Positions 34,031-36,944 of a stretch of 64,000 bases of DNA are shown here, piece after piece. The stretch comes from Nitrospirae bacterium GWB2_47_37 (lineage in GTDB: Bacteria; Nitrospirota; Thermodesulfovibrionia; Thermodesulfovibrionales; Dissulfurispiraceae). A program made the translations under genes and the position numbers. The stretch is taken from assembly GCA_001803635.1 (NCBI GenBank), contig MHDU01000074.1, positions 124,001 through 188,000 on the forward strand, given 5' to 3'. Numbering within the stretch: the first letter of the stretch is position 1; the number at the start of each line of letters is the position of its first letter. The notes beneath the pieces are model-generated. The model did no database searches. It saw nothing but the letters and a program-made list of their open reading frames with translations, and was not told where the DNA came from.

Positions 34031-34083
34031 AAAAGAAAAATGTTTTTGATAATAATCCCTAAATATACAACAAAATGAAATGG

Positions 34084-34125
34084 TAGGCACGAGGGGTATC
34101 GAACCCCTGACCTCTACCGTGTCAA
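34084..34125 (-). repeat. Left attachment copy: 3' half of tRNA-Val
   Basis: It is identical over 42 bases to 36772-36813. On the minus strand it covers the anticodon loop, variable loop, T arm and 3' acceptor strand, but the 5' half (D arm) is absent, so it is not a functional tRNA. It marks one junction of an integrated element. Confidence 0.85.
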
Positions 34126-34252
34126 AGCGCCAAACGGCAATTTAAGCAAATCGGCTGCCGGTAACGATTTGGGCTAAAAGCATTGAGGCTGTAAGGTTTG
34201 CAAGGATTCTATATTTTATGTTCGTTATCGTATTTTCTGCCCTTTTTGATAT

Positions 34253-34285
34253 TTTCTGCTACAATTTTGCTACATTTTTACTACA
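34253..34285. repeat. Three tandem 11-bp repeats (putative integrase arm sites)
   Basis: Units TTTCTGCTACA, ATTTTGCTACA and TTTTTACTACA lie head to tail with 11-bp period, so they face one side of the helix. They sit about 130 bp inside the left attachment copy. Two more units of the same family occur at 35942-35963. A second feature nearby is an inverted repeat TACCGAAGCG (34289-34298) / CGCTTCGGTA (34329-34338). The rest of the 34031-34504 gap shows nothing else except the promoter at 34406. Confidence 0.6.
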
Positions 34286-34405
34286 GTCTACCGAAGCGAT
34301 CCGGCATAACAAAAACTGTAAATTATACCGCTTCGGTATAATAATTATAATTTAAACAAAAAGCTACATAATCGGCTAAAAATCAATAATATCTGCACAA
34401 AATTC

Positions 34406-34434
34406 TTGATTCCCTCCTTCTGTAGGTTTATAAT
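34406..34434 (+). promoter_or_regulatory. Sigma70-type promoter upstream of the HEPN cassette
   Basis: TTGATT (34406-34411) and TATAAT (34429-34434) are separated by 17 bases. The predicted start is near 34441, and the first cassette gene begins at 34505. The promoter lies outside the proposed cassette edge at 34468/34469, like an integron common promoter. Confidence 0.55.
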
Positions 34435-34504
34435 GCTATAAAATGTATAATAAACTTAAAAGAGAATGTTAGAACTCTCGCAATACTAAAATAGGAGGTA
34501 GTAA

Positions 34505-35023
34505 ATGGATAAAGAAAGAACTGCCGAAGTCCAATCTAAGTTATTGGAAATGAATAAACTCATCGCCAGATTGGACCCAGCAATAAGGGCGGCTGCCTTT
34601 GAAATTATGGTTCCCTACTATTTTGAAGATAAACCAGCTGCTAGAAAAACAAAGGAGGACAAGACTAAGGAGGGGGGAGGAAAATCATCAAAGGAAGATG
34701 TTGATGTCAGCGATTTAGGAGCGTTTCTTGAAATCTTCGAGCATGCAAAACCAGCGGATAATGTCATGCTGCTAGTTGCATGGCTGTACTCCCAATATGG
34801 GGCATACTCGATACAAGTAAAAGAAATAAAGGAACTTTCCGATGCTAGTGGGTTAGTAATCCCTAATCGGGCTGACAATACCATGCGGCAAGCGAAAGAT
34901 AAGGGCAAAGGGTTGTTGTTTAGTCAGCAAGGAAAGGGCTGGAAATTAACTGTCAGTGGAGAACTGTTTGTAAAAAACACATATAACGTTAAGAAAGGAA
35001 ATAAGAGCCTTCCGAAGGATTAG
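34505..35023 (+). CDS. Winged-helix-like protein of unknown function (cassette gene 1)
   Basis: This protein has 172 residues. The N-terminal helical part (1-40) and a lysine-rich linker (44-65, KPAARKTKEDKTKEGGGK) lead to a domain at about 86-158: VMLLVAWLYSQYGA, IPNRADNTMRQA and GWKLTVSGELFVKN. The order of helices followed by a hairpin before xLTxSGExFV suggests a winged helix. The same pattern opens the next protein (residues 17-93), so the two share a module. A strong AGGAGG site precedes the ATG, and the stop is 3 bases before the next start. It may bind DNA or its partner. No family name is recognised. Confidence 0.6.
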   Translation: MDKERTAEVQSKLLEMNKLIARLDPAIRAAAFEIMVPYYFEDKPAARKTKEDKTKEGGGKSSKEDVDVSDLGAFLEIFEHAKPADNVMLLVAWLYSQYGAYSIQVKEIKELSDASGLVIPNRADNTMRQAKDKGKGLLFSQQGKGWKLTVSGELFVKNTYNVKKGNKSLPKD

Positions 35024-35026
35024 TAA

Positions 35027-35770
35027 ATGACTATTGTAGAGTTCTTGCACCCCATTAAGTCAAAAGGCATTAAAAACGTTTGCCTGGCTGCAATGTATTT
35101 CGATCGACGCTATCAGGCTGGCGAGTCTTTAACTGTAGAAGGTCTAAGGGCGTTACTAAAAAGAGCAAAAGTACCAAGGGCCGCACAGCTAAACTTGGCT
35201 GCAACGTTATCTCAGTCCGCGCCATACGTTGATACAGTTGGAAAAGAAGGCAATCGATTTCTATGGTCGCTTACTAATAGTGGGGAATCATTTGTTAGAG
35301 AGCTTCTGGAGCTCCCGGCAAGTGACATAGAAATAGAGAACGACGTATCTTCATTAGAGGCTCTTATCTCCTCAATTTGCGATAAAGATGTATGTGACTA
35401 TCTAAATGAAGCGGTCAAATGCCTCCAAGTCAACGCGCTCCGGGCGTGCGTTGTATTTGTATGGTCTGGGTCAGTAAAAAAGATAAGAGATGATGTGTTT
35501 TTGTGTGGCGTCAGCAATATTAATCCCGCATTAGCGAAATTCGATTCAAGAGCTAAGCCTGTTAAGAAGCTAGATGATTTGGTTTTAATCAAAGAGTCAA
35601 CACTTCTGTTAGTTGCTCAGGAGTTGGGGCTTTTCGATAAAAACCAAAGATCAGTGTTAGAAGACTGCTTGAATCTCAGAAATAAGTGCGGCCATCCCGG
35701 AAAATACAAAATTGGGCCAAAAAAGGTGAGTAGCTTTATAGAAGATGCAGTTGGTATTTTGTTTGGATAA
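35027..35770 (+). CDS. Winged-helix plus HEPN-domain protein (cassette gene 2)
   Basis: This protein has 247 residues. The N-terminal module (17-93: VCLAAMYFDRRYQAGESLTV ... LWSLTNSGESFVRE) parallels that of gene 1. The C-terminal part (about 110-247) is helical and has the HEPN marks: an EAVKCLQVNALRACVVFVW helix and a late LRNKCGH motif, an R-x4-H with Arg218 and His223. HEPN proteins with this motif are often RNases in toxin-antitoxin or phage-defence systems. Here the partner and mobile context point the same way, but activity is inference. The attC-like site begins 3 bases after the stop. Confidence 0.65.
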   Translation: MTIVEFLHPIKSKGIKNVCLAAMYFDRRYQAGESLTVEGLRALLKRAKVPRAAQLNLAATLSQSAPYVDTVGKEGNRFLWSLTNSGESFVRELLELPASDIEIENDVSSLEALISSICDKDVCDYLNEAVKCLQVNALRACVVFVWSGSVKKIRDDVFLCGVSNINPALAKFDSRAKPVKKLDDLVLIKESTLLLVAQELGLFDKNQRSVLEDCLNLRNKCGHPGKYKIGPKKVSSFIEDAVGILFG

Positions 35771-35772
35771 GA

Positions 35773-35845
35773 GCTCTAACAATACGCTCGTTCGGACGCA
35801 AACTACGCTGCGCTTCGTTTGCCTCTCACAGCTTGGTCGTTATCC
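35773..35845 (+). other. attC-like recombination site
   Basis: The 73-base imperfect inverted repeat begins GCTCTAAC (R'') and ends GTTATCC (R'). The left arm CTAACAATACGCTCGTTCGG and the reverse complement of the right arm share TAAC, A, GCT and a perfect GCAAAC/GTTTGC inner stem (35798-35803 and 35816-35821), with unpaired bases typical of attC. Size is within the usual 57-141 range. The remaining gap to hicA holds the repeats at 35942 and the hicA promoter. Confidence 0.55.
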
Positions 35846-35941
35846 AAGAATCAATTATAAATCCTTCTCCCTTAATATTTTTTCAAGAAGCGCACAAAGA
35901 CTTTGCATAGTCGATTTCCACAAACGAAATCCGGCAATCTA

Positions 35942-36019
35942 AAATTGCTGTAATTTTGCTGCATCGGCGCATGAAGGTCAAAGGCAGGCAGTGTAACTCT
36001 TTGATTTTAATGGTAGGCA
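35942..36019. repeat. Second 11-bp repeat pair and decayed attachment-like sequence
   Basis: AAATTGCTGTA and ATTTTGCTGCA (35942-35963) match the repeat family at 34253. At 36009-36019, AATGGTAGGCA repeats the bases at the start of the left attachment copy (AATGGTAGGCA, 34079-34089), followed by GGTAT after five bases in both. This may be a decayed right junction of an inner element, leaving hicAB in a second unit. Confidence 0.4.
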
Positions 36020-36082
36020 TTGTTGGTATGTCATATTTTTATGACGGTAATAAGAATTCGCTTTTCGCGACATTTTAGTAAC

Positions 36083-36124
36083 TGCAAGTCAGTTGCAATA
36101 TCCTTTCTTCCGTGCTATTATAAT
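36083..36124 (+). promoter_or_regulatory. hicAB promoter and probable HicB operator
   Basis: TTGCAA (36093-36098), a 17-base spacer and TATTAT (36116-36121) form a promoter; TATAAT also occurs at 36119. The inverted repeat TGCAA-N5-TTGCA (36083-36097) overlaps the -35, a likely autoregulatory site. The start falls near 36128, so hicA may be translated with little or no leader. Confidence 0.5.
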
Positions 36125-36127
36125 CTC

Positions 36128-36388
36128 ATGAGCAAAACCGAAAAGCTGTTACAGCGTTTTCTATTAAAGCCGAAAGACTTTACTTTTGAGGAGCTCGGAA
36201 AGCTTCTAAAGGGTTTCGGATACGAAGAAGCGAAGACAGGCAGGGCATCGGGGTCAAGGGTAGCGTTTATCAATCGTAAGACAAAGAGCATCATCCGGCT
36301 GCACAGGCCGCACCCAAGTCCGGAGCTTAAGCGCTATCAGTTGGATGATGTGGAAGAGGCATTAAGAAAAGTGGAGGTGATCAAATGA
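36128..36388 (+). CDS. hicA: HicA-family mRNA interferase toxin
   Basis: The 86-residue protein starts at ATG 36128. It has the double-stranded-RNA-binding-like HicA fold: KPKDFTFEELGKLLKGFGYE, then ASGSRVAFINR and LHRPHPSPELKRYQLDDVEE. The usual GSHH active-site stretch is GSR here, with a histidine in LHRPHPS; this matches the HicA subfamily with the SGSRxxF pattern. It cleaves mRNA when free of HicB, which overlaps it by 4 bases. It lies in the island next to the tRNA-Val gene. Confidence 0.85.
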   Translation: MSKTEKLLQRFLLKPKDFTFEELGKLLKGFGYEEAKTGRASGSRVAFINRKTKSIIRLHRPHPSPELKRYQLDDVEEALRKVEVIK

Positions 36389-36720
36389 AAGACGGCATCA
36401 TTTATAAAAACTTTATCGGTTCCGTGCATTTCAGCGCCGAAGATAAGGTATTTCACGGCAAGATTGAGGGTATCGGCGACCTGATAATGTTTGAGGGACA
36501 AAGCGTCTCCGAACTCATCAAGGCGTTTCACGAGGCGGTAAATGATTACATTGAACTATGCAAAGAGGCCGGCAAGGAACCTGAACGGCCATTTAAAGGC
36601 AGTTTTAATGTAAGGATATCCTCAGACCTTCACAGGAAGGCGGTGAAGAAGGCTACTATAATGGGCGTATCCCTGAATCAGCTCGTTCAGAAGGCGTTGG
36701 AAGAAAAAGTAGCCGTCTAA
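36385..36720 (+). CDS. hicB: HicB-family antitoxin
   Basis: This 111-residue protein has a partial RNase H-like HicB domain (YKNFIGSVHFSAEDKVFHGK, FEGQSVSELIKAFHEAVNDY) followed by a ribbon-helix-helix (FNVRISSDLHRKAVKKAT, VSLNQLVQKALEEK). It neutralises HicA and represses the promoter. GGAGGTGATC precedes its ATG, and the overlap with hicA indicates coupled synthesis. Confidence 0.9.
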   Translation: MKDGIIYKNFIGSVHFSAEDKVFHGKIEGIGDLIMFEGQSVSELIKAFHEAVNDYIELCKEAGKEPERPFKGSFNVRISSDLHRKAVKKATIMGVSLNQLVQKALEEKVAV

Positions 36721-36771
36721 GAAGGGCTTCGGACGCTCGAATCGGAGGTAATGCCATAGGGTTATAAAGAA

Positions 36772-36843
36772 TAGGCACGAGGGGTATCGAACCCCTGACC
36801 TCTACCGTGTCAAGGTAGCGCTCTCCCACTGAGCTACGCGCCT
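36772..36843 (-). tRNA. tRNA-Val (anticodon GAC)
   Basis: Read on the minus strand, a 72-nt cloverleaf is complete: acceptor AGGCGCG/CGTGCCT, D arm GCTC..GAGC, anticodon stem CTACC/GGTAG with loop TTGACAC (anticodon GAC, plus-strand 36809-36811), T arm AGGGG-TTCGATA-CCCCT, and discriminator A. CCA is not encoded. Its 3' half is duplicated at 34084. Confidence 0.93.
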
Positions 36844-36944
36844 ACATAATGTGGAATGTTCATTAAAACCAAAACTGCGCATTTTTGTCAATACCGGCTT
36901 AAATGCTTGAATCAAGGCATATATGCATGGTATGATTTTATCAA

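Follow-up and report, generated by a model that had tools for sequence, protein, structure and literature searches.

The two genes described here lie on the + strand of a 64-kb window (the whole stretch of DNA that was analysed). Gene 1 (34505..35023) encodes a 172-aa protein which, judged from its predicted model and its homologues, is probably an adaptor or sensor, and gene 2 (35027..35770) encodes a 247-aa protein in which a winged-helix (WH) module (residues 1-96) is followed by a HEPN domain (about residues 108-245), suggesting a probable RNase effector. Both ORFs were found intact at the positions proposed by an earlier, sequence-only reading of the window, with a gap of 3 nt between them, and gene 1 is preceded by a strong ribosome-binding site with the SD sequence TAGGAGGTAG at 34492. 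When the window was compared with the homologous pair of the gamma-proteobacterium HTCC5015 (L002), synonymous sites were saturated and dN was only 0.08 for gene 2 and 0.18 for gene 1, indicating that both proteins are under purifying selection. No model describing gene 1 or the pair was present in Pfam, NCBIfam, PADLOC-2023 or PHROG, and no paper describing the pair was found in a literature search. Searches of protein 1 against Pfam, NCBIfam, PADLOC and PHROG returned sub-threshold noise only, and NlpA lipoprotein and PqqF, which appeared at that level, were rejected as its identities. Single-sequence scans of protein 2 against Pfam (empty) and NCBIfam missed the HEPN domain, and protein 2 alone gave no match to the PDB by phmmer; no match was obtained by tblastn against phage records, or by tblastn of protein 1 against plasmids.

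The HEPN type had been assigned to protein 2 on account of an Rx4H motif (Arg218, His223), and this assignment was supported when profiles were compared. Residues 108-245 aligned with PD-T7-3-type proteins of plasmids and phage contigs, over their N-terminal domain (hhalign 99.4, E 4.6e-22), and the gene-2 family profile matched the PDB entries of Dandelion-hepn (E 7e-5) and Dandelion (E 3e-4), which the PD-T7-3-type profile matches more strongly (3e-18). The putative catalytic motif R218-N-K-C-G-H223 (35678..35695, + strand; codon of R218 at 35678 and of H223 at 35693) follows the consensus R-N-x2-[AG]-H. Its Arg and His are not variable; together with the Asn they are invariant in 11/11 aligned homologues and stay so down to 16-20% identity, and E128, C132, R139, W146, N166, K189 and E190 are likewise invariant in the 11 homologues, as are R218, N219 and H223. 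AlphaFold2 predicted the HEPN block as all-helical with pLDDT mostly above 90. A Foldseek search with the protein-2 model gave many HEPN chains among its matches, all of them weak (best E about 0.4). Foldseek against viral models gave nothing significant. Some HEPN domains are inactive, and the motif by itself is no proof of RNase activity; from its sequence, protein 2 is probably a HEPN RNase.

It had also been proposed that the two proteins share a module with a common end motif. Both copies of the motif, GWKLTVSGELFV and LWSLTNSGESFV, are present, and they proved to be the end of a whole WH module common to protein 1 (residues 69-161) and protein 2 (residues 1-96). The profile-profile alignment of this module (hhalign, 12 protein-1 homologues against 11 protein-2 homologues) reached a probability of 96.3 with a score of 66.4 and an E of 1.6e-9, compared with scores of at most 16.9 in 30 column-shuffled profiles and 14.1 in the reversed control. 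In the AlphaFold2 model, protein 1 is predicted to consist of an N-terminal helical hairpin (residues 3-39, LDPAIR), a disordered linker of low confidence (residues 42-66) and a C-terminal winged helix (residues 83-159, pLDDT about 80) which is built of helices 83-98, 105-115 and 121-132, strands 137-148 and a last helix 150-159. Foldseek of this model returned scattered winged-helix and EF-hand matches, none of them significant. The N-terminal WH of protein 2 was predicted poorly by AlphaFold2 (pLDDT about 33-55), and its assignment therefore rests on the profile match.

The two genes were expected to occur together, and a gene-1 neighbour was indeed found at 14/14 loci encoding a full-length WH-HEPN protein (the window, L002-L004, the plasmid locus L005, L016-L019, L023-L025, L029 and the phage contig L036). 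Close homologues were found in HTCC5015 (protein 2 86% identical), Terasakiispira (L003, 78%) and Rhodanobacter (69%), and distant pairs on an Ochrobactrum plasmid, on the phage contig L036 and in eight genomes (L016-L019, L023-L025 and L029) taken as samples of HTCC5015's class and phylum and of the window's own phylum. The two genes of L018 are divergent, yet they lie inside one cassette. A divergent HEPN protein on the prophage contig L035 has two gene-1-like ORFs upstream, and no gene 1 was recognisable beside a further viral HEPN protein (L037). Two of the loci carry damaged genes: gene 2 of Terasakiispira has an in-frame stop at codon 178 while its gene 1 is intact, and gene 1 of L016 appears frameshifted beside an intact gene 2. 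For L016, either gene 1 is dispensable for silencing protein 2, or an in-frame WH-only ORF is enough, or the frameshift is a sequencing error.

On the evidence of the boundary sequences, the two ORFs are carried together by an integron gene cassette (34469..35839, + strand), a feature that the sequence-only reading had missed. An attC-like site (35773..35845, + strand) follows gene 2, running from R'' GCTCTAAC to R' GTTATCC with inner arms that are partly degenerate, and the predicted recombination points are G^TTAGAAC (34468/34469) and G^TTATCC (35839/35840). The 5′ boundary GTTAGAAC matched the reverse complement of the window's own R'' GCTCTAAC at 7/8 positions, a level reached by 11/500 shuffles. 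The corresponding boundaries of L002, L003, L017 and L018 matched at 8/8 positions (0/500 shuffles each): at these four loci the GTTRRR.. just 5′ of the first gene is the exact complement of the R'' just 3′ of the last, and R'' is followed by clear attC sites which fold as hairpins. In an arm-matrix scan of both strands of the 64 kb, with arms trained on other loci, the attC-like site of the window ranked first among 1477 candidate arm pairs (21.7, against 17.6 for the next); its bottom-strand hairpin (-8.7 kcal/mol) is weaker than those of most homologous sites. The window's genome encodes an integron integrase (IntI, TIGR02249 above cut-off) on another contig (G000:C32), not adjacent to the cassette, and no attC array was present in the stretch of that contig that was read. 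Integron integrases above the curated cut-off were also found in the genomes of L002, L017 and L019.

The cassette in turn lies inside a tRNA-Val element. Two copies of the 3′ end of tRNA-Val form a 42-nt direct repeat, one attL-like (34084..34125) and one attR-like (36772..36813), the latter inside the tRNA-Val gene itself (36771-36844, - strand). The left end of the element (34126..34342), in which TGCTACA repeats occupy 34257-34286, is about 89% identical to a sister element (over 34079-34342), and the right end (35859..36019) is 87% identical; no integrase gene was found inside the element (34084-36813). The pair had been placed in a mobile island beside hicAB. This is correct: the tRNA-Val repeats bracket both the pair and hicA (36128-36388, + strand; Pfam HicA_toxin 1.3e-8) with hicB (36385-36720, + strand; Pfam HicB 3.6e-21); the unit of mobility is, however, the integron cassette and not just the island. 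In the sister genome, an element at the same tRNA with the same ends (L043 2040-3887) has a membrane protein and BrnTA (the BrnT toxin and a probable BrnA) as its cargo. Since hicAB is absent from that element, it represents a separate neighbouring insertion; it also lies outside the cassette of the pair, and it was rejected as a functional partner. A comparison with the empty site was attempted in the sister species G001, where the contig ends before the tRNA. Pieces of the element ends recur elsewhere in the same genome (C69 and C20; L058, L059) and in sister genomes (L060, L061, L065), and several of them adjoin small toxin-antitoxin-like genes (PIN, and by eye DUF4258/DUF2283-like).

The gene-1 profile also recovered relatives whose next gene differs from the WH-HEPN protein, and because these relatives of the partner adjoin other cell-killing enzymes, the pair resembles one version of a so far undescribed, modular type of bacterial defence. 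In L081 and L099, the gene-1 relative adjoins a predicted pPIWI-associated nuclease (PF18165, pP_pnuc_1 2.7e-11). L099 (1-14534) is a defence island holding the type I restriction-modification genes HsdM/S, a probable HsdR, GmrSD, AbiEii, the pPIWI-associated nuclease and the gene-1 relative, with two RhuM-like genes recognised by eye. In L094-L097, the gene-1 relative is followed by a ParA-like ATPase and, at loci where the reading extended one gene further, by a protein with a RelA_SpoT domain (PF04607, E 3e-13 to 2e-17); the conserved three-gene clusters span L094 2908-5210, L095 5323-7683, L096 2842-5128 and L097 3678-6048, and the adaptor and RelA/SpoT proteins of L094 gave no match in PADLOC. 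In Terasakiispira (L003), another pair, with a DUF4145 HEPN protein as its effector, lies ahead of the WH-HEPN pair. DUF4145-like HEPN pairs, in which the gene-1 relative has a beta-type N-terminal module, were seen at L003 5731-7040 and L096 6841-8188, each near another unit containing gene 1. The partners in L088 and L090 show an RN-x-H-like motif, and their C-terminal part looks like a winged helix, as judged by eye and from weak matches only. A possibly TIR-like partner was noted by eye only beside the gene-1 relative of L089; Pfam and the PDB gave no support for a TIR domain in the L089/L098 partner.

When the gene-1 proteins with non-HEPN partners were compared as a profile with those having HEPN partners, the match was 97.5% with a score of 79.0 against 14.9 for shuffled profiles, part of the former set having been found with that same profile; L083 and L093 are marginal as gene-1 relatives on their own (E about 4e-4). 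As far as these neighbourhoods indicate, protein 1 is not a dedicated partner of the WH-HEPN protein, and the description of a modular adaptor or sensor suits it better than that of a dedicated antitoxin. We tentatively suggest, at somewhat less than even confidence, that it founds an undescribed class of small WH adaptors, composed of a variable N-terminal sensor, a linker and a WH, which may couple infection sensing to interchangeable effectors, namely WH-HEPN and HEPN-WH RNases, DUF4145 HEPN proteins, the pPIWI-associated nuclease, ParA with a RelA/SpoT synthetase, and possibly a TIR-like protein.

CBASS, Thoeris and Avs are modular defence systems in which interchangeable effectors are joined to a conserved control component; here, the control component differs in being a WH protein of 170-200 aa without a recognised enzyme domain. 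Among known HEPN proteins, PD-T7-3 (PADLOC PDLC04108) has a HEPN domain homologous to that of protein 2, with the motifs E..C...R and RN..(A/G)HP in common. It is a single protein of about 430-460 aa, in which the HEPN domain is N-terminal and a long C-terminal region follows, with neither a WH nor a partner gene; protein 2, with its 247 aa, its WH first and HEPN last and its partner gene, is therefore not a PD-T7-3 member. PD-T7-3 defends E. coli against phages (Vassallo et al., 2022; PMC9519451). BxaP, which resembles it in structure, protects against T4, an activity that a P121A change in the N-terminal region of BxaP abolishes (PMC10799925). A PD-T7-3-like HEPN protein was also seen directly 3′ of the integrase in two P2-like prophage contigs from IMG/VR (L011, L012). 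Dandelion and Dandelion-hepn (PDB 9wxf, 9wx2) have the HEPN domain in common with the gene-2 family by profile, but Dandelion is a single chain of 460 aa, unlike the two-gene pair; no paper describing Dandelion was found in the literature search. HEPN-MNT and other type II HEPN toxin-antitoxin pairs likewise place an Rx4H HEPN protein, of weak Foldseek similarity to protein 2, beside a small partner, which is a nucleotidyltransferase in HEPN-MNT and a WH adaptor here. Vpc_cass2 has a HEPN-type fold and also comes from an integron cassette (PDB 3JRT; PMC3548836, PMC3710099); it was absent among the PDB matches that the gene-2 profile gave up to an E of 10, and for that cassette family neither a partner protein nor a winged helix is described. 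The HEPN domain is of a known kind, whereas gene 1 and the pair are undescribed by the models searched or the literature found.

HEPN RNases are common abortive-infection effectors, whose triggers are mostly unknown. The pair had been put forward as a toxin-antitoxin or defence candidate, and this was strengthened by its kinship to PD-T7-3 and Dandelion, its carriage on integrons, a plasmid and a phage contig, and the swapping of effectors by relatives of protein 1. We consider it fairly probable that the cassette is a mobile two-gene conflict module, most likely acting in anti-phage abortive infection, in which the WH adaptor controls the HEPN RNase through their homologous domains. The RNase activity, WH binding, restraint, trigger and phage protection that we infer would fit together as follows. 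Protein 2 would be a HEPN ribonuclease effector, probably dimeric, whose RN..(A/G)H motif cuts RNA, and the cutting would arrest or kill the cell. The WH of protein 1 would dock on protein 2, or both might bind nucleic acid side by side, and the docked protein 1 would keep protein 2 inactive; when the variable N-terminal module of protein 1 registers an infection cue, the RNase may be released or assembled. Such an adaptor/sensor-effector arrangement accounts for the invariant catalytic residues, for the obligate pairing, even where the genes are divergent, for the shared domain and for the swapping of effectors. Experiments have established integron cassettes as carriers of many phage-defence genes (review PMC12409362). 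Counted against such a module are the poor AlphaFold2 confidence for the WH of protein 2, the weak Foldseek matches to HEPN structures and the apparently frameshifted gene 1 of L016, and also that most of the loci belong to integrons, plasmids or chromosomes in which no defence island was identified.

A type II toxin-antitoxin cassette, with protein 2 as a constitutive HEPN RNase toxin, protein 1 as an antitoxin and autorepressor binding DNA through its WH, and cassette maintenance as its role, appears to us rather unlikely, though it is the main rival. It would suit a pair of linked small genes, set 3 nt apart with the antitoxin-like one first, the conservation of the two-gene unit at 14/14 full-length loci, the frequent carriage of pairs of this type by integrons and tRNA elements, and the presence of BrnTA at the same tRNA site in the sister genome. 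The gene-1 relatives beside ParA-RelA and the pP_pnuc nuclease are at odds with a dedicated antitoxin, however; also against this reading are the apparently broken gene 1 beside an intact gene 2 in L016, the divergent genes of L018 and the grouping of the gene-2 HEPN with PD-T7-3, which stands alone and has no antitoxin gene. A purely regulatory or RNA/DNA-binding pair, in which the WHs bind DNA while the HEPN domain, without catalysis, serves for dimerisation or RNA binding and influences the expression of cassette or phage genes, would agree with the two WH modules and with the existence of inactive HEPN families (PMC3710099); we regard it as improbable, for the R, N and H are invariant down to the lowest identities, as is typical of catalytic HEPN domains. 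That the cassette is a degenerate, non-functional remnant, as its degenerate attC arms, its position outside an array and the codon-178 stop of Terasakiispira gene 2 might suggest, is very improbable given the two intact ORFs of the window, their strong ribosome-binding site and the purifying selection seen against homologues.

In the preferred reading of a WH adaptor controlling a HEPN effector, a domain is common to the effector and its partner, the two travel as one cassette and relatives of the partner drive other effectors, so that sensing and killing should be separable and can be tested by part swaps between natural family members. The module would add an adaptor-based type to the defence systems banked by integrons, and a predicted role would fall to the unannotated neighbours of genes for RelA/SpoT-like proteins and pPIWI-associated nucleases. 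If the adaptor class is real, it would constitute a new family of modular immune systems disseminated by integrons, phages and plasmids.
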